From positions 1-28,452 of the IMG/VR virus record IMGVR_UViG_3300044742_000150: a stretch of DNA of 28,452 nucleotides; one strand, 5' to 3'. How positions within the stretch are numbered: the first letter of the stretch is position 1; each line of letters begins with the position of its first letter. The position numbers were made by a program, and so were the translations under genes. The notes beneath the pieces were generated by a model. The model saw only the letters and a program-made list of their open reading frames with translations. It was not told the DNA's origin and ran no database searches. Shown here piece after piece: positions 44-8,308 of the stretch. The DNA is from a virus.

Positions 44-2323
44 ATGCAATATCTCAAACAATCAACGGCTACTACAATCGCGATCGGGCCATTTCTGGAC
101 GACACGGATGGGAAAACTCCCGAAACCGGCCTGACGATCTCGCAAGCTGACGTCATCCTGAACAAGCACAATTCTACTACGTTCGCGCAGAAGAACGATG
201 CGACGAGCGCGACGCATCGTTCGAACGGCTGGTATACGGTACCGATCGACACCACGGACACGAACACGCTCGGCCGCTTGGTTGTGGCGATCACGGAAAC
301 CGGCGCACTGCCTGTGTGGCACACATTCGAGGTGCTTGCGGCGAACATCTATGATTCGCTGGTGGGCGGCGGTGCCAATCTCAAGATTGACGTCGAGACG
401 ATCAAGACACAGACCGTGACGGCAGCTGGTGCCGTGACGGTGCTGGCAAGTGTGGGAACTGCGGCTACGAGCACGGCGCAGACGGGTGATTCCTTTGTGC
501 GCATTGGTGCTCCCGCGGGTGCGAGCGTGAGCGCTGACGTCGCGGCGGTCAAGGCCGATACGGCGGCGATCAAAACCAAGACGGACTTTCTACCGAGCGC
601 GACTGCGGGAGCTGCTGGCGGCGTGTTCATCGCCGGGACCAATGCCGCGACGACGATCACGACCGCGCTCACAGCAAACATCACGGGCAACTTGAGCGGC
701 TCAGTCGGCAGCGTGACGGCAGCCGTCACCGTTGGGACCAATAACGATAAGACGGGCTATGGTCTGAGCGGTGCAGCTGTTCAAGCGATCTGGGATGCGC
801 TGACCTCTGCGTTGACGACGGTCGGAAGCATCGGGAAAAAGCTTGCCGACTGGGTAATCGGCACTGCGCAGACAGGCGATTCTTTCGCACGACTTGGCGC
901 ACCTGTTGGCGCTTCAATCAGCGCGGATGTAGCTGCGGTCAAGGCCGCGATCGTGACGGTTCAAGCCGACACGGACGATATTCAGACGCGGCTACCGGCG
1001 GCGCTGGTTTCTGGGCGCATAGATGCGAGCGTGGGCGCGGTCGCCGCAAGCGCCATCACATCCGCCGCGATCGCCACGGACGCCTTTACTGCGGCCAAGT
1101 TCGCCGCTGACGCGAAAACCAAGCTGCGTTCGATCGTGAGCGGAACGGCGCAGAGCGGATCGACCACGACGCTCGTTGACACGGCGCGCACCGAGGCTGA
1201 CACCGATTACTGGAAGGGCTGCATCATTCTCGTTACGAGCGGCTCGAGTGCGGGAGAGGCCCGCTTGATTACCGTGTTTGATGCTGCGACCGACACGCTT
1301 ACGTTTGCGCCTGCGCTGACGCAAGCAATCAGCACGAACACGTATGAGATTCTGCCTGGCGCGCGCGCTGATGTCGGCCTCTGGAATGGCACGCTGCCGA
1401 ACGTGCTTTTGAGCGGACGAGTTGATGCCAGTGTGGGCAGCTATCCTGGCAACTCTCCTCAGACTGGCGATTCCTTTGCACGGCTTGGTGCGCCTGCTGG
1501 CGCGTCCGTGAGCGCAGACGTGGCCGCCGTGAAAGCAGACACCGCTGCAACTCTTACGGCAGTTGACACCGAGGTCGCCGCAATCCTCGCGGCGGTCGAC
1601 ACGGAAGTCGGAGCCATCAAGACAAAGACCGATTTCTTACCAAGCGCGACAGCTGGTGCAGCTGGTGGATTGTTCATTGCTGGAAGCAACGCAGCAACGA
1701 GTATCACGACCGCGCTCACGGCGAATGTCATTGGCAACGTGACGGGCAATCTCAGTGGTTCGGTGGGTAGCGTTACTGGCGCCGTGGGTAGCGTGACTGC
1801 CGCGGTGACGGTAGGAACAAACAACGACAAGACTGGGTATGGCTTGAGCGCGGCCGCGGTGCAGGCAATCTGGGATGCGCTCACCAGCGCATTTACTACG
1901 GCTGGCAGCATTGGCAAGAAGCTGGCCGACTGGGTGCTTGGCAGCGACAACAAAGTGATTCTCTCGAACAACGCACATACCGGCGCGGTGATTCCGACGG
2001 TGACAACGGTAACGACCACGACGACCACGACCAATTTGACAAATGCGCCGACCGCGGGCGATCTTACGGCAACGATGAAAACGAGTGTGAAGACACAGGT
2101 AACTGATGCGCTCGCGGTCGACACTTACGCAGAACCAAGCGCGCCGCCTGCTGCCACGGCGACGCTGAAGGACAAGGTTGGATGGATGGCGGCGCTTTCG
2201 CGGAACAAGATCACGCAGACAGCGACAACTCAGCTGCTGCGCAATGACGGAGACGCTGCAACGATCGGGACAAGTACTCACAGCGACGACGCGACAACTC
2301 ATATTCGCGGGAAGTTTGCGTAA
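44..2323 (+). CDS. Large repeat-rich phage fibre / virion appendage protein
   Basis: This 759-residue protein has the architecture of phage fibres. Residues 1-110 form a beta-rich head that begins MQYLKQSTATT and ends with the NIYDSLVGG motif, which I recognise from many uncharacterised metagenomic phage fibre proteins. Residues 146-640 are Ala/Thr/Val/Gly-rich with internal duplications. QTGDSF..GAP.GAS units start at residues 146, 276 and 473, and a ~100-residue module recurs at 175-273 and 524-633. A threonine run follows at about 653-664. The C-terminal ~65 residues (RNKITQTATTQLLRNDGDAATIG...SDD.TT) look like the conserved trimerisation or tip domain of such fibres. It probably adsorbs to a host surface. 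Its position before the portal leaves open whether it is a tail fibre or a head fibre. The next gene starts inside its stop codon (TAATG). Confidence 0.7.
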   Translation: MQYLKQSTATTIAIGPFLDDTDGKTPETGLTISQADVILNKHNSTTFAQKNDATSATHRSNGWYTVPIDTTDTNTLGRLVVAITETGALPVWHTFEVLAANIYDSLVGGGANLKIDVETIKTQTVTAAGAVTVLASVGTAATSTAQTGDSFVRIGAPAGASVSADVAAVKADTAAIKTKTDFLPSATAGAAGGVFIAGTNAATTITTALTANITGNLSGSVGSVTAAVTVGTNNDKTGYGLSGAAVQAIWDALTSALTTVGSIGKKLADWVIGTAQTGDSFARLGAPVGASISADVAAVKAAIVTVQADTDDIQTRLPAALVSGRIDASVGAVAASAITSAAIATDAFTAAKFAADAKTKLRSIVSGTAQSGSTTTLVDTARTEADTDYWKGCIILVTSGSSAGEARLITVFDAATDTLTFAPALTQAISTNTYEILPGARADVGLWNGTLPNVLLSGRVDASVGSYPGNSPQTGDSFARLGAPAGASVSADVAAVKADTAATLTAVDTEVAAILAAVDTEVGAIKTKTDFLPSATAGAAGGLFIAGSNAATSITTALTANVIGNVTGNLSGSVGSVTGAVGSVTAAVTVGTNNDKTGYGLSAAAVQAIWDALTSAFTTAGSIGKKLADWVLGSDNKVILSNNAHTGAVIPTVTTVTTTTTTTNLTNAPTAGDLTATMKTSVKTQVTDALAVDTYAEPSAPPAATATLKDKVGWMAALSRNKITQTATTQLLRNDGDAATIGTSTHSDDATTHIRGKFA
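479..1537 (+). repeat. Three copies of a ~26-residue coding repeat in the first fibre
   Basis: The unit QTGDSF(V/A)R(I/L)GAP.GAS(V/I)SADVAAVKA is encoded at about 479-556, 869-946 and 1460-1537, at fibre residues 146, 276 and 473. The protein copies are nearly identical while the DNA copies differ mostly at third positions. This indicates old duplications kept by selection on the protein rather than recent copying. Confidence 0.8.
566..1942 (+). repeat. Duplicated ~100-residue fibre module
   Basis: The segment from KTKTDFLPSATAGAAGG to GSIGKKLADWV(I/L)G occurs at 566-862 and again at 1613-1942. The second copy carries about ten extra residues of the GNVTGNLSGSVGSV type, so the copies differ in the length of the Gly/Val repeat. 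A related KTD.LPSA..GAAGGLFIAG.NAAT segment is also found in the second fibre gene near 3748-3822, which points to module exchange among fibres. Confidence 0.8.
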
Positions 2324-3216
2324 TGGCGATAGACACGGCAGCAAAACGCAAGAGCTGCATTGGCATTGCAGCGCCATGGAATCGGACGGGCGTGATCCCG
2401 GATGGCTCGAACCTTTCTGCGGCTCAGCGGCTGCACGCGGACTATCTCTACTCCGGTATCCCGTCGAGCGCACCTGGCGGCGTGACTCTCATGGCAATGG
2501 AGCGGTCGAAGTTTCGACGGGTGTTCGGTCGGATCTTTGGCAGGGTAAACTAGCATGTGGGCATTAAAACAAAGTACCGCTCTAACGGTTCAAGTCTTTG
2601 TCCACGACGCTAACGGCGATGGCATTACAGGCATTGCCGACGGTTCTTTTACAAAGCGAATCAGCAAAGGCGCGGGCGCCTGGGGCGCCATGACGGTCAC
2701 GATCACGGAAGGGGAAGCGGGCTGGTATTTCCTTCCGTTGTCCACAACGCACACCGACACGCTTGGCATGCTCGCCGTGTCGCTTTCGGCTTCTGGCGCC
2801 AAGCGCGTGAACCTGCAATGGCCCGTGAGCGCGCGCGTTCTCGATGACCTCGCAACCGGAGCACAGGCCACGGCGATTCAGGCCGATACGGACGACATAC
2901 AGACGAGGCTGCCGGCGGCGCTCGTGAGCGGGCGCATGGACTCGAGCACGGGCGCGATGGCAGCAAGCGTTGTGACGGCCACGGCAATTGCTGCCGACGC
3001 GATCACTGCGGCCAAGGTCGCTAGCGACGTGAGCGACGAGATCGCTGCCAAGATCCTGGTAACGCCAGCGCAAAAAGTCGCCACGGACGCGAGCGGTTTT
3101 GTGACCGCGAATCTCAACGGCGATCTCACGGCGACCATGAAGACGAGCGTCACGACCGCGGCGACCGCGGCAACACCAGTTGCTGCCAGCGTTACTGGCG
3201 CCGTGGGTAGCGTGAC
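1769..3216 (+). repeat. 29-nt identical direct repeat shared by the two fibre genes
   Basis: Positions 1769-1797 and 3188-3216 are identical over 29 bases and encode the same S-V-T-G-A-V-G-S-V-T peptide in both fibres. Since most other repeats here differ at third positions, this exact match stands out as a possible recombination or recent conversion site between the paralogous fibre genes. Confidence 0.6.
2323..2553 (+). CDS. Small fibre-associated protein (partner of first fibre)
   Basis: This 76-residue protein begins MAIDTAAKRKSCIGIAAPW. I recognise that opening, together with P-D-G and YSGI motifs, from short genes that follow fibre genes in many phage genomes; their function is not known. 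The ATG lies inside the TAA of the fibre (TAATG), so translation is almost certainly coupled. The C-terminus is basic (RSKFRRVFGRIFGRVN). Its N-terminus resembles the product at 4261-4533 (IDTA.KR...IG......P DG), making the two a paralogous pair, each behind a fibre. A role as a chaperone, adaptor or tip subunit of the fibre is inference from position. Confidence 0.6.
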   Translation: MAIDTAAKRKSCIGIAAPWNRTGVIPDGSNLSAAQRLHADYLYSGIPSSAPGGVTLMAMERSKFRRVFGRIFGRVN

Positions 3217-4264
3217 GGCAGCTGTGACCGTTGGCACGATCAACGCCAACGCGCTCAACGCGGCGGCGATTGCTGCTGGAGCCATCACGGCTGCCAAGTT
3301 CGCCGCTGGAGCCATCGACGCTGCCGCGTTCGCCCAGGCGGCCGCTGACAAGGTCTGGGCCACAGCAGTGCGCGCGCTCACGGACAAGGCCGGGTTCTCA
3401 CTCAGCCAGTCTTTTCCAGCCAACTTTGCAGACCTGGCCATCGCGGTCACGACGGGGCGCGTCACGGTCGGCACCAACACGGACAAGACCGGTTATGGGC
3501 TCACGTCGGGAGAGGAAGACGCGATCGTTGACAAGGTGTGGGACGAGCTACTTTCGGGTCACGTGGTCGCCGGTAGCGCTGGCGCAACGCTCGCGGGCGC
3601 GGGTAGTGCGGGCGATCCATGGACGACATTGCTACCTGGTGCGTATGGCGCAGGTACAGCCGGCAAGATCGTGGGAGACAATATCAACGCCACGATCGCG
3701 AGTCGGGCGCCGGAGGCCGGCGGCAACGTCGCAGCGATCAAGGCGAAGACTGACAACTTGCCGAGTGCTGTACCAGGTGCCGCGGGTGGGCTGTTCATTG
3801 CCGGAACCAACGCGGCAACGTCAGTCAATATTACTGGGAATGTGACGGGAAATCTCTCGGGCTCGGTCGGTTCCGTTACCGGCGCTGTTGGCTCTGTCAC
3901 GGGAAACGTTGGAGGTAGTGTCAATGGGTCTGTCGTTGGTTCTGTCGGCTCTGTTGCTGGCAATGTGTTTGGGAATGTTATTGGAACCATTGGTGGCCTG
4001 GCTGCTCAGGCGAAGACCGAAGTCAACGCGGAAGTCGCAGACGTCGTGAAGATCGACACGATTCCAGATCGTGCAGTTGCAGTGCCACCAGCAACACCAA
4101 CGTTCGAGCAAGCGCTTTCTTATATCTATCTCGATGCGATCTCGAAAAAGGTGCTCAATTCGACCACGGGCAAGAAGCAACTCTTCAACAAGGCAGGTGT
4201 CAAGATCGCCGAGGGCAACGCGACTGATGCGGCTGGCGTTGCCACGGTGGAGGCGCTTGCGTGA
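2555..4264 (+). CDS. Second repeat-rich fibre / virion appendage protein
   Basis: This 569-residue protein is organised like the first fibre. Residues 1-100 form a beta-type head (MWALKQSTALTVQVFV, with T.TDTLG matching TDTNTLG upstream). An Ala/Thr-rich shaft follows, with QADTDDIQTRLPAALVSGR at about 109-127, nearly identical to the first fibre. Residues 425-482 form a striking run of short Gly-x-Val-x repeats (GNVTGNLSGSVG...GNVFGNVIGTIG), a likely beta-helical or triangular fibre shaft. The C-terminal ~80 residues (AEVADVVKIDT...ISKKVLNSTTGKKQLFNKAG...DAAG) correspond to the tip domain of the first fibre. It starts one base after the preceding stop, and its own stop overlaps the GTG of the next gene. 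Confidence 0.7.
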   Translation: MWALKQSTALTVQVFVHDANGDGITGIADGSFTKRISKGAGAWGAMTVTITEGEAGWYFLPLSTTHTDTLGMLAVSLSASGAKRVNLQWPVSARVLDDLATGAQATAIQADTDDIQTRLPAALVSGRMDSSTGAMAASVVTATAIAADAITAAKVASDVSDEIAAKILVTPAQKVATDASGFVTANLNGDLTATMKTSVTTAATAATPVAASVTGAVGSVTAAVTVGTINANALNAAAIAAGAITAAKFAAGAIDAAAFAQAAADKVWATAVRALTDKAGFSLSQSFPANFADLAIAVTTGRVTVGTNTDKTGYGLTSGEEDAIVDKVWDELLSGHVVAGSAGATLAGAGSAGDPWTTLLPGAYGAGTAGKIVGDNINATIASRAPEAGGNVAAIKAKTDNLPSAVPGAAGGLFIAGTNAATSVNITGNVTGNLSGSVGSVTGAVGSVTGNVGGSVNGSVVGSVGSVAGNVFGNVIGTIGGLAAQAKTEVNAEVADVVKIDTIPDRAVAVPPATPTFEQALSYIYLDAISKKVLNSTTGKKQLFNKAGVKIAEGNATDAAGVATVEALA

Positions 4265-4533
4265 TCGACACCGCAACGAAACGCTACTCGCTCATCGGCG
4301 TGCTACCCGTCCCGGACGGGGCCATTACCGACGGCGAGAAATACGGCTTTCTCGGGGAGTATGCTGGCGACACGTGGCCATTGCCACCAAGCGGTATTTG
4401 GTTCGCAACGTTGTCTGTAACTGCTGACGTGCTTCCGTCGCCGCTCGCCCTTACGCTGGATTCGCAGCCGGGGGCCCTGACCGTGATCGCCGACAAGCTG
4501 ATTTCAACTCTCGATGTCGTGGTGGATGGATGA
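4261..4533 (+). CDS. Small fibre-associated protein (partner of second fibre)
   Basis: This 90-residue product starts at a GTG that overlaps the stop of the second fibre (GTGA), so it is probably coupled to it. It begins MIDTATKRYSLIGVLPVPDG, aligning with the small protein behind the first fibre (MAIDTAAKRKSCIGIA...PDG), and has the same Y.GFLGEYAG-type middle. The C-terminal half (LALTLDSQPGALTVIADKLISTLDVVVDG) is beta-prone and absent from the first partner. I know the family only as short genes beside phage fibres. Function is unknown. Confidence 0.55.
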   Translation: MIDTATKRYSLIGVLPVPDGAITDGEKYGFLGEYAGDTWPLPPSGIWFATLSVTADVLPSPLALTLDSQPGALTVIADKLISTLDVVVDG

Positions 4534-4542
4534 GACGCCGCA

Positions 4543-5700
4543 ATGAATAGATTGGTTACTTCTAGCGCGACTCCGATTGATACGCTTTCGCTTGTTGCGA
4601 TTAGCTTCTATTCGCGGCCAGGAAATGCGCTGTGTTATTCCGAGCGAAACGGCATTCGACCATGGGCACACTACACACTCGACACGGAAGGCGGGTCGTT
4701 CACATCGCTAGCGCTGGATGGCTCCCGCTTGCCACATATTTCTTATCACGTTGGGACTGAGCTGTCCTCGCTGGCGGGCGAAGGCGATGGAAGCGAGCTG
4801 CGCTATTGTCGATTTACCGGCACATCTTGGGTCACGGAGACGGTCGATCGCTCGAGCAACTATGTTCCCGTGGCAAATGTCGGAGTCGAGGGCGGGATTG
4901 CATTGGGAGCAGATGGCATTCCATGCGTTGCTTATCGTTCTTATGATTACAACCACGGCGGGCTCAACGCGGTCATGTTCGCCGTCAAGAACGGTGTTGC
5001 CTGGGACCGAACGACCATTGCTGGCGCGGACGTCGGATCGTTCGGCGACTTCAACCAGGGTGCCGGCGCAATTCCGCTAGTGGACGCCTCTGGCTCTTAT
5101 CGCGTGATCTATACCGCGGATGTCGACGGCCGCGCATTGATGACCTGGTTTCGTGGCCCAGAGGGTGACTCGACCAGGGTCATCGCGCGCGCGGATATTG
5201 ACGGACTCTCGCAGGGCTTTCTGCACTGGCCAGCCGCGGTCATGGCCAATGGTGTGCCGCATGCCTCCTATGGCGACGTCATTCCCTTCGGTGCGCCGGC
5301 AACGCTCGACAACCTCAAGCATGCGCGGCGTTTGGATACCGGGGCGTGGCAGGCGGAGACCATCGACGGATCGGACAAGGTCGGCCAGTTTTCCTCGATC
5401 GCCGCTGATCCACATACGGGCCAGATTGCCATCTCTTATTTCGATCGGACGACAGAGACTGTCCGAGTCGCGCGGCAGTCTGGGCAAACATGGATTATCG
5501 ATGATATCGACCAGGTGGACACCTCTTTTTGCCAGACGTCAATCGCGTGCGACGGAGCCGGCGGCATCCATGTCAGCTACTACTCGGCGCGTGCGCCAGG
5601 GCTGATGCATGCCTGGCGCAGAACGTTTGGCGGCTGGACGATTGAGACGGTGGCTATGGGCACGGACGTCGGCCTTTACAGCTCTATCGAGGCACTCTGA
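4543..5700 (+). CDS. Seven-unit beta-propeller-like protein (sialidase-type repeats)
   Basis: This 385-residue protein is built of about seven repeats of roughly 50 residues. Their consensus is S(I/L)A.D..G.P.(I/V)SYY....L.(Y/H)A.......W..ETVD....VG, clearest at AVMANGVPHASYGD, SSIAADPHTGQIAISYFD and TSIACDGAGGIHVSYYS. The chain starts in mid-repeat (LSLVAISFYSRPG) and ends with VGLYSSIEAL, which would complete that first repeat. This is the usual velcro closure of a propeller. Such repeats are known from sialidase/BNR-like and other bacterial surface proteins. No catalytic residues can be assigned, so a binding role on the virion, such as a glycan or receptor, is inference. No signal peptide is visible. 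It precedes the next gene with a TGATG overlap. Confidence 0.6.
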   Translation: MNRLVTSSATPIDTLSLVAISFYSRPGNALCYSERNGIRPWAHYTLDTEGGSFTSLALDGSRLPHISYHVGTELSSLAGEGDGSELRYCRFTGTSWVTETVDRSSNYVPVANVGVEGGIALGADGIPCVAYRSYDYNHGGLNAVMFAVKNGVAWDRTTIAGADVGSFGDFNQGAGAIPLVDASGSYRVIYTADVDGRALMTWFRGPEGDSTRVIARADIDGLSQGFLHWPAAVMANGVPHASYGDVIPFGAPATLDNLKHARRLDTGAWQAETIDGSDKVGQFSSIAADPHTGQIAISYFDRTTETVRVARQSGQTWIIDDIDQVDTSFCQTSIACDGAGGIHVSYYSARAPGLMHAWRRTFGGWTIETVAMGTDVGLYSSIEAL

Positions 5701-6092
5701 TGGCTCAGCTTGTCATAGAAGTTCAGAAGCGCCGCGACAAGATCTACGAAATCACAGTGCGTGACAGTGTCGGCGTTGTTGTCAATCTGACCGGTGCGTC
5801 GGCGAAGCTGTCGATTCGACTCGAGGAGAACGAGCCGACCGTCATCAAGACCTATTCCACGACGCCAAGCGGTAGCGAAGGCACAATTAACATCACCGAC
5901 CCTACTGGCGGCAAATTGCAAGTGCTGTTCGATGATACAGACTTTGCTGCCCAAGTGATCCCGAAAGGCAAGACTGGGGTTGAATGGCGCTGGGATCTTC
6001 TCGTCGTGACGAGTGCCGGCACGCGTCTTGACTCGCGCAATGCAAGTGACTACGTGCACCGCTTCTTGCTCAAAACTTCGATCACGGATTGA
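5700..6092 (+). CDS. Small beta-rich structural protein, BppU N-terminal-like
   Basis: This 130-residue protein has the pattern of BppU-N / DUF2479-type domains found at the base of phage fibres. It opens with a beta start (LVIEVQKRRDKIYEITVRD), then V.NLTGAS.KLSIR, then GSEGTINITDPTGGKLQVLF and a final EWRWDLLVV. Those domains attach receptor-binding proteins to baseplates in some siphoviruses. The assignment rests on pattern and length only. Its ATG overlaps the stop of the propeller gene, so it is probably translated together with it. It is the last gene before the portal and could anchor the upstream appendages to the virion. Confidence 0.45.
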   Translation: MAQLVIEVQKRRDKIYEITVRDSVGVVVNLTGASAKLSIRLEENEPTVIKTYSTTPSGSEGTINITDPTGGKLQVLFDDTDFAAQVIPKGKTGVEWRWDLLVVTSAGTRLDSRNASDYVHRFLLKTSITD

Positions 6093-6100
6093 TATTGACC

Positions 6101-8308
6101 ATGGGCCTACTCGATTTCCTCTCACGGCGAACGGCGAAGCCGGCACAGAATGGCCATGCGCCGCCGCGCCATCGTATTTACGACGATGATGCCGACGAGC
6201 ACGATTACATGAAGTCGGCGAGTGATGATTACGCCGCTGCATCGTTTGGCGAGAACCCCAGCGAGATCACGGCAGGCGCTGACGCCGAGCGCTATTTCAA
6301 TTGGTATGTGAATTTCGTTTGGGTAGCGGTCGCAATGAACGCGCGCGCGAACAATGCTGCGAGTGTCCCGAAGCGCTGCGTCAAGGTCAAGGCAGATTAT
6401 ACAACGGAAGACCTCCCGCCAAGCAATCCGCTCTGCAAGCTAATGGCCCAGCCGAACAGGCACCAGGGGCCGCGCAAGTTCATGAAGCGGTTCATGTTAC
6501 ACCTGGACGCGGCGGGAATGGCGTTTGTCTTGATGGACGAGGGAAGAGCGCCGGAAGAAATGTATTTGCTCAAGCCGGAGCGAACGCGGATTGTGCCGGA
6601 CCCGGTCAAGTTCATCAAGGGCTTTCGCTATGACGTTCGGCACAGCAGAACAGAGGTTAACAAGTTCTTTTACACATACCCCGATCAGGCCTGGTATCAC
6701 AATTACGACGACCCGAGAAGCGAGTATCTCGGGCTGTCGCCGCTGACGACTCTGGCGCGCACGATTCAGATTGAAGACTATGTGCAGCGCTGGACGCTTG
6801 CGACGTTCAAGAATAACTGCCGCGTGGATCAAGTGTTTGAGACGGATAACCAGCTTGAGAGAACCGCCAAGCGCCGTTTTCTTTCTGAGTTCTTTGCGGC
6901 CTTTCGCGGTGTCGATAATCAGGGCAAAACGTTCATTGCCGAGAACGGGCTCAAGCTCAAGCAGCTGGGTCTGAACCCAAAAGACACCGAGTTCCTCTCA
7001 TTGCGCAAGGTGAACTGGCGAGAAATCCTGGCGGTCTATGGGGTAACCCCTGCGATTGCTGGCGTCACCGAAGATATTAACTACGCAACGGCCAACGAGC
7101 AGCGTCGCGGATTCTGGGAAAACACCATGATTCCGACGCTGAGCGATATTGACGAGACGTTCACGGCGCGAGTTGCACGGCGGTTTGGTGATGACTACGC
7201 AATCGTCCATGATTACTCGCTGATTGAAGCGCTTCGGGAGAATTCCAACGAGCGCGTTACTAGACTTAGTGTCATGCGCGCGAGCGGTGCAATCAGCGCA
7301 GATGAGTTCCGAGAAGAAATGAATTACGAGGCCATTGGCTCACCGGTGATGGTGGCCGTGATGAAGCCTGGCGTTTTGATGGACCCGATCAGTGGCGAGG
7401 CCGTGGGTCCGGAGCCGGAGCCGGTAGCTGGTCCAGGCGGGATGCCCGGAGATGATGACAAGGATGAGAAGAGTGCGGCCACCGGCAAGGCCTACGGCTC
7501 GCGGGAGTATCGCGAGCTGGCCTGGAAGGCGTTCGACCGCAACGCGCGCAAGCTGATCAAGAGTTTTTCGCGCGAGATGGCCGAGTTCTTCGATGGACAG
7601 AAAGCGCGCGTTGTCGCGAAGCTTCGGCAGTTCACGCAGAAGAAAGACGCCATCGATACCGGCTTTGACCCATTCAATGCCGATGAGGAAGCTCGCCGAT
7701 TCCTCGAGAAGATGCGCGCGGCTTATCTCGATGCCTTGCGTGATGCCGGTGAGAACCGGGTTGATGACTTGGCGGTTGTGCGTCTATCGCAGTTCGACGC
7801 GGCGACTGACCGGGTCTTGCACTACATCCAGAACCAAGCCGCCAAGCGCATCGTCGGAATCAATGTCGAGACGGAAGCGCTGGTGCGCGTCGAGATGGAA
7901 GCGGGATTCAAGGCGGGTGAATCGATTGACCAGCTGGCCGCGCGGCTCGAGTCAATGTTTGATGCCTTCTCGCGTCCGCTCTCTGAGAACGCGCCAAGGT
8001 TCACGCGTGCGGATACGATCGCGCGCACCGAGGTTATGTCGTCGCTCAACTTCGGAAACCACGAGGCCGAGCACCAGGCGGTTGAGGCTGGCGCCAAGCT
8101 GGTCAAGCAGTGGATTGCAAACCCACGACCGAGCGCGCGCGATAATCACGTCGAGATGGGCGAAGAGACCGCAGCTGAACCGATTCCGTGGGAAGAGCTG
8201 TTTAGCAATGGAATGCAGTTTCCGCACGATCCGAATGGTGATGCAAGTGAGACGATCAACTGCACTTGTACGCATATTTCCTACCCGGCAGGGCTTGGCG
8301 GCATATGA
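6101..8308 (+). CDS. Portal protein fused to MuF-like minor head domain
   Basis: This 735-residue protein joins two functions. Residues ~55-400 match HK97-type portals: YFNWYVNFVWVAVAMNARA near the start, MYLLKPERTRIVPDP, the AWYHNYDDP...LGLSPL segment, and the WREILAVYGVTPAIAGV...INYATANEQRRGFW motif. After a Pro/Gly/Asp linker (~430-460) comes a helical region. The last ~140 residues then have the MuF (Mu gpF / SPP1 gp7) signature: TIARTEVMSS, KLVKQWIANPRPSARDNHVEM, NGMQFPHDP and NCTCTH. The dodecameric portal is the DNA entry and exit channel, and MuF proteins are internal minor head proteins. I chose ATG 6101 (MGLLDFLSRR) over the TTG at 6089. The stop overlaps the next ATG (ATGA). Confidence 0.9.
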   Translation: MGLLDFLSRRTAKPAQNGHAPPRHRIYDDDADEHDYMKSASDDYAAASFGENPSEITAGADAERYFNWYVNFVWVAVAMNARANNAASVPKRCVKVKADYTTEDLPPSNPLCKLMAQPNRHQGPRKFMKRFMLHLDAAGMAFVLMDEGRAPEEMYLLKPERTRIVPDPVKFIKGFRYDVRHSRTEVNKFFYTYPDQAWYHNYDDPRSEYLGLSPLTTLARTIQIEDYVQRWTLATFKNNCRVDQVFETDNQLERTAKRRFLSEFFAAFRGVDNQGKTFIAENGLKLKQLGLNPKDTEFLSLRKVNWREILAVYGVTPAIAGVTEDINYATANEQRRGFWENTMIPTLSDIDETFTARVARRFGDDYAIVHDYSLIEALRENSNERVTRLSVMRASGAISADEFREEMNYEAIGSPVMVAVMKPGVLMDPISGEAVGPEPEPVAGPGGMPGDDDKDEKSAATGKAYGSREYRELAWKAFDRNARKLIKSFSREMAEFFDGQKARVVAKLRQFTQKKDAIDTGFDPFNADEEARRFLEKMRAAYLDALRDAGENRVDDLAVVRLSQFDAATDRVLHYIQNQAAKRIVGINVETEALVRVEMEAGFKAGESIDQLAARLESMFDAFSRPLSENAPRFTRADTIARTEVMSSLNFGNHEAEHQAVEAGAKLVKQWIANPRPSARDNHVEMGEETAAEPIPWEELFSNGMQFPHDPNGDASETINCTCTHISYPAGLGGI

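Follow-up and report, generated by a model that had tools for sequence, protein, structure and literature searches.

A conserved tag encoded beside phage fibres that probably docks on the fibre C-terminal domain

In a viral cassette of two fibre genes, each followed by the gene of a small partner protein, the partner starts with a tag of about 45 residues that recurs together with one particular fibre C-terminal domain (C-dom). Tag and C-dom co-occur and are mostly encoded next to each other, the tag depends on the presence of the C-dom, it is conserved at the level of the protein, and it is also found inside virion proteins. The tag probably docks on the C-dom and thereby joins it to a part of the virion or to the next component. 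From these patterns we infer a physical binding of tag and C-dom, its stoichiometry and the end that would face the virion.

A duplicated fibre-partner cassette

The window (the whole stretch of viral DNA that was analysed, 28,452 nucleotides) had been described in an earlier note as containing a duplicated cassette of fibre and partner, located ahead of the portal and capsid genes. Both descriptions hold: the four ORFs lie exactly where they had been placed and form homologous pairs (Table 1), and the genes for portal (position 6089), protease (8266) and capsid (10410) all come after the cassette. The stretch 6089-8308 is a single ORF that contains the portal and a Mu F-like head morphogenesis domain (PF04860, PF04233).

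Table 1. Coordinates of the cassette and of the adjoining gene in the window
Feature	Position	Strand	Description or basis
Fibre 1	44-2323	+	759 aa ORF; N-domain, repetitive shaft, conserved C-terminal domain
Fibre 1 N-domain	44-400	+	N-domain profile
Fibre 1 C-dom, proposed socket	2081-2317	+	iterated HMM
Partner 1	2323-2553	+	76 aa ORF
Partner 1 tag module, proposed plug	2323-2460	+	tag HMM
Partner 1 tail, second module	2461-2550	+	common to L147; ...FRRVFGRIFGRVN
Fibre 2	2555-4264	+	569 aa, ATG start; N-domain, shaft, C-dom
Fibre 2 N-domain, subtype DANGDGITG..KRISKG	2555-2881	+	N-domain profile
Fibre 2 C-terminal domain, divergent C-dom	4016-4252	+	C-dom HMM
Partner 2	4261-4533	+	90 aa ORF, GTG start
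Partner 2 tag module	4264-4368	+	tag HMM; shortened, without the middle loop
385-aa protein adjoining the cassette	4543-5700	+	weak BNR/propeller resemblance (BNR_4 E=0.05, below cut-off)

The similarity of the two fibres extends over their N-terminal, shaft and C-terminal parts, as had been proposed. In pairwise comparisons, the N-terminal 120 aa match with E=4e-11, blocks of the shaft match at 72% over 57 aa (E=1e-17) and at 54% over 85 aa (E=9e-14), and the C-terminal 90 aa show weak homology (E=7e-6). The partners indeed share their opening, to which the alignment is limited (44% over 27 aa, pairwise E=2.5e-4), and both match one 46-position profile built from relatives (partner 2 with an E of about 1e-7). 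Repeats that both cassettes have in common at the DNA level agree with this homology. Furthermore, blocks of about 160-180 nt recur in the shaft, both within fibre 1, at a spacing of about 1,050 nt, and between the fibres, which suggests that shaft modules may recombine among themselves.

The stop of fibre 1 and the start of partner 1 overlap by 1 nt (TAATG), and fibre 2 and partner 2 overlap by 4 nt (GTGA). Because of these overlaps, translational coupling of fibre and partner is likely. Read-through of the stop codon, which would fuse fibre and partner, is not favoured, with the stop always being TAA in 12 in-frame pairs. Many other fibre-partner pairs overlap out of frame.

Downstream of partner 2, the 385-aa protein might, speculatively, be a further adhesion component. 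It is followed by a 130-aa protein (5700-6092) that matches phrog_1084 (unknown function, E=3e-8). Small proteins that resemble this protein come after the partners in L003, L005 and L016, which may place it in one adhesion region with the cassette.

Tag and fibre C-terminal domain occur together

Partner queries retrieved ten and fifteen viral contigs, the query with the fibre C-terminal domain retrieved 80 viral loci and two bacterial contigs, and two further tag queries retrieved 40 and 21 loci. An iterated HMM cut the partner down to a tag of 46 positions and the fibre end to the C-dom. By this HMM, the partner consists of a tag of about 45 residues ([IL]DTxxKRxS ... PDG ... DRQ ... YxGI) and a variable tail. 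The partner is a module plus tail rather than a single protein family of fixed length; the small partner family of the earlier note thus recurs beside fibres, as was claimed, but is better viewed as a transferable, putative docking module to which a tail is added. The conserved positions of the tag are encoded by freely varying synonymous codons, among them TCN and AGY for serine and CGN and AGR for arginine. The motif is thus conserved as protein and not as DNA, which rules out an element that acts at the nucleic-acid level.

To quantify co-occurrence, we removed only DNA-identical duplicates and counted tandem second tags, such that the events in the following numbers are not independent. 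Starting from the fibre, 54 of 74 distinct C-dom genes have a tag directly downstream and 13 more have one within 2.5 kb, that is, 67 of 74 are paired and seven are not. Two of these seven (L068 and L070) have sub-threshold tags, and in L088 a tag is located about 4 kb further along the record; for a few C-dom genes, for instance in L069, L103 and the second copy in L107, no tag was found in the locus DNA examined. Starting from the tag, a C-dom lies directly upstream of 51 of 67 distinct tags and within 2.5 kb of another 15. Most tags start 0-4 nt from the fibre stop, and in some loci the pairing persists across one intervening small gene. The proposal that fibre and partner form a recurrent unit in other phages is thus confirmed, and partners without fibres, which would speak against such a unit, are rare (66 of 67 tags are paired). 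The sole tag without a detectable upstream C-dom is located at L142:3888-4475.

The C-dom HMM was trained before the loci L117-L176 were retrieved. In these loci, the tag has a C-dom on its upstream side with two exceptions, L142, where none was found, and L134, which meets the contig edge. To gauge the background, we ran the tag model on 599 genomes from two phyla, of which only the two seed genomes matched, and a single-tag scan of genome contigs detected no relative. When 50,697 phage records were searched by tblastn, those partner and fibre queries that gave any match all pointed to one phage, the Microcystis phage Mvi-Yong1342-1 (proteins XAN61292.1 and XAN61293.1), where the two genes are adjacent; tblastn of partner 1 and partner 2 against annotated phages detected no homologue.

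We next consider which part of the fibre the tag depends on. Among fibres with an N-domain of the window type, a tag follows immediately in 43 of 52 that have the C-dom compared to none of five that lack it (Fisher p=5e-4). C-dom fibres without the window-type N-domain are immediately followed by a tag in 34 of 47 cases. Furthermore, the second fibres of L010 and L173 have kept the N-domain and have a different C-terminus, and no tag comes after them. The tag tracks the fibre C-dom irrespective of the fibre N-terminus.

Neither fibres nor C-dom have a Pfam match above the cut-off or a PHROG match (fibre 1 has one sub-threshold Pfam match), and tag and partners have no significant match in Pfam, PHROGs or NCBIfam. 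A sequence search of the PDB with fibres and partners or tag yielded nothing useful, with one weak, meaningless match. When C-dom and tag were artificially joined and modelled with AlphaFold2, the C-dom reached a pLDDT of about 90 and the tag 50-64 (pTM 0.50); no sign of docking is visible in this monomer model, which cannot show a trimeric interface and speaks neither for nor against docking, and Foldseek with the same model found no significant structural homologue. A literature search aimed at this fibre-partner gene pair found nothing. The pair is apparently an undescribed recurrent unit, in line with the earlier suggestion of an undescribed functional unit, and it is absent from the libraries searched (Pfam and PHROGs, and NCBIfam for the tag).

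Tags in larger proteins and the tails of partners

The tag is not restricted to small partners. In L025, it lies ahead of a tail terminator (Tail_completion_gp17, PF11367 E=3e-9 from residue 58; phrog_347), and in L033 ahead of a distal tail protein (phrog_1302, 1e-14; phrog_12948, 3e-33). L087/G028 has two tags inside a phrog_376 tail protein (450 bits), which we read as a podovirus-type nozzle. In an alignment with two untagged relatives, the first tag of G028 occupies a loop that is empty in G037 and holds another insert in G005. The phrog_376 profile picks up again on both flanks of the second tag, which in our reading would lie in a hairpin. This untagged phrog_376 protein of G005, L178 (G005:C1:5000-8200), carries a different insert in the tag loop of G028, and this loop looks like an insertion-tolerant surface loop. 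The tag of L127 precedes DUF2341 and a BNR-like region, the latter below the cut-off, and that of L109 lies within a 720-aa repeat protein. All of these fusion genes are downstream of a C-dom fibre. Since the tag recurs within tail ring proteins and beside one fibre end, it is probably a plug between fibre and virion.

Some partners are conserved over their whole length; for instance, partner 1 and its L173 counterpart are 72% identical over all 76 aa, and the C-dom of fibre 1 is 47-63% identical to those of L173 and L108. In other cases, tail and tag differ in their conservation. The tail of partner 1 is common to L147 (59% over 27 aa, E=8e-8), whereas the tags are just 39% identical, and one group of genomes has two partner types with tails that are about 75% alike and tags that are about 46% identical. 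The residues after the tag thus look like a second module, and similar tails with different tags within a genome are what a two-faced adaptor would be expected to show. The window, L147 and L173 share the partner tail, and in all three the next gene is a fibre of the same N-domain subtype; the same holds for L010 and L148, which have a tail and the N-domain subtype of the next fibre in common. This pattern fits an adaptor that would link fibre 1 to fibre 2, although close linkage explains it too.

There is also a second type of tag (GVTPN..EWRQE.GWGYSGI), which is paired with variants of the C-dom distinct from the common form, including in genomes that have both types. Several ORFs contain tandem tags. 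In L050, L058, L062 and L023, the tag proteins end with an acidic and then Leu-rich stretch (such as DDEEELLLLL).

A proposed docking mechanism and its alternatives

We propose that the tag at the partner start would be a docking plug for the C-dom of the fibre encoded just upstream, with fibre and partner probably being translated as a coupled pair. The tag would link the C-terminal end of the fibre to whatever sequence comes after the tag. In some phages this attached part would be a virion ring protein itself, that is, the tail terminator, the distal tail protein or the nozzle, and these ring proteins would hold the fibre through the tag. In the window and in most relatives, the tag would instead be part of a short adaptor whose C-terminal tail binds another component. 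The ring-protein fusions seem to favour an anchor on the virion; variable tails and the enzyme-like fusion of L127 would allow a distal tip.

The latter points to the best-placed alternative, namely that the partner is a tip adhesin similar to gp38, with an N-terminus that caps the distal trimeric C-terminus of the fibre and a hypervariable C-terminus that touches the receptor. The overlapping partner gene directly after the fibre, the conserved N-terminus combined with variable, repetitive or Gly-rich C-termini, the DUF2341 and BNR-like region of L127 and the precedent of S16 gp38 (PMC6851490) are all consistent with such an adhesin. However, the same tag is carried by three proteins that are not fibre tips, namely a tail terminator, a distal tail protein and a nozzle-type protein, and many partner tails have only about 19-40 aa or are common to partners with different tags. 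We thus consider a tip adhesin rather unlikely.

Based on the gene order, the earlier note had suggested head fibres or appendages at the neck. The cassette does precede the portal in the window, a portal-like ORF follows fibre 2 in L173 too, the cassettes of L010 and L007 are followed by genes that read as connector-like or MuF-like, and the tail terminator that carries the tag in L025 is located at the neck. Nevertheless, when we surveyed portal positions, no consistent cassette location was found: in eight other phages the pair is separated from the portal by about 4 to 36 kb, either up- or downstream, and in the Microcystis phage it lies after the tail and lytic transglycosylase genes and before the lysin gene. 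As the gene position varies among phages and tags elsewhere are carried by a distal tail protein or nozzle, the term head fibre is not supported, and it is unlikely that the cassette encodes specifically head or neck fibres.

A fibre assembly chaperone of the Tfa or T4 gp38 type, absent from the virion, would likewise be a small protein whose gene lies directly downstream of the fibre with an overlapping start codon; this is highly improbable, as the tag is covalently fused to structural ring proteins, inserted within the nozzle-type protein and found in tandem in one ORF, and no chaperone family in Pfam, PHROG or NCBIfam matches significantly. Lastly, distances between C-doms correlate with those between tags (Mantel r=0.30, or a partial r of 0.26 once the fibre N-terminus is taken into account, compared to a partial 0.17 for fibre N-terminus and tag given the C-dom), a modest covariation that adjacency or linkage alone could yield. 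Yet mere co-inheritance as a linked segment without contact leaves unexplained that tags occur in unrelated ring genes right after a C-dom fibre, that the tag is absent where another C-terminus replaces the C-dom, and that the pairing is kept across one small intervening gene, so that we give it very little weight.

Docking of the tag on the C-dom remains our preferred reading. More tentatively, phages of several morphologies might share such a plug and socket as an undescribed portable system, which would move between tail rings, adaptors and enzyme-like proteins. The window would then encode a chain that runs from fibre 1 through partner 1, fibre 2 and partner 2 to the propeller-like protein, with each partner tail gripping the component after it, as could be the case in the two groups of loci with shared tails. 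Host range is shaped by the way in which fibres attach to the virion and to one another, which is understood in few phages. If docking is true, attachment sites of fibres (neck, tail tip or nozzle) would become predictable in uncultured phages. The putative plug and socket are recognizable by sequence, are absent from the libraries searched and would provide a protein-protein interface that can be tested directly; the pair is carried by the Microcystis phage record.

Comparison with known systems

Cohesin and dockerin modules are a portable plug and socket. By analogy, and with no claim of homology, the tag would work in a similar way, including tandem plugs in some proteins. In the joints of the T4 long tail fibre (gp34-gp35-gp36-gp37), a small protein lies between two fibre segments. 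The gene order of the window would match such an assembly order, which is a consistency and not a demonstrated homology. Chaperones of the Tfa or T4 gp38 type are recognized by a family sequence match, which was not found for the partners.

Functionally nearest are the tip of S16 (gp37/gp38) and the docking peptides of branched receptor-binding proteins (RBPs), and we claim membership in neither. In S16, the N-terminal helical bundle of gp38 caps the trimeric gp37; like gp38, the partner is encoded by a small gene directly after the fibre and has a conserved N-terminal attachment part and a variable C-terminus (PMC6851490). In contrast to gp38, the tag is short and is also a module on ring proteins, and no sequence link was found to gp38, which has a helical attachment bundle and a Gly-rich sandwich: the PDB gave no sequence match and the fold search, for which the tag model was poor, no significant match.

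Conserved N-terminal docking peptides of branched RBPs have been described for Klebsiella phages and for SP6, K1E and K1-5 (Latka et al. 2019, PMC6872550). These peptides may have as few as 7 residues, are located at the N-terminus of the RBP and use a T4gp10-like domain or an anchor protein as their docking site (PMC6872550). The T4gp10-like branching domain was not detected in the fibres (Pfam, PHROG) or the C-dom (PHROG, fold search). Whereas the peptides are N-terminal, the tag has about 45 residues, is N-terminal or internal, occurs on terminator, distal tail and nozzle proteins, and is tied to a fibre C-terminal domain without Pfam or PHROG match. What the tag has in common with these peptides is that a short conserved segment is shared by otherwise different virion proteins and is proposed to dock to a partner protein of the virion.
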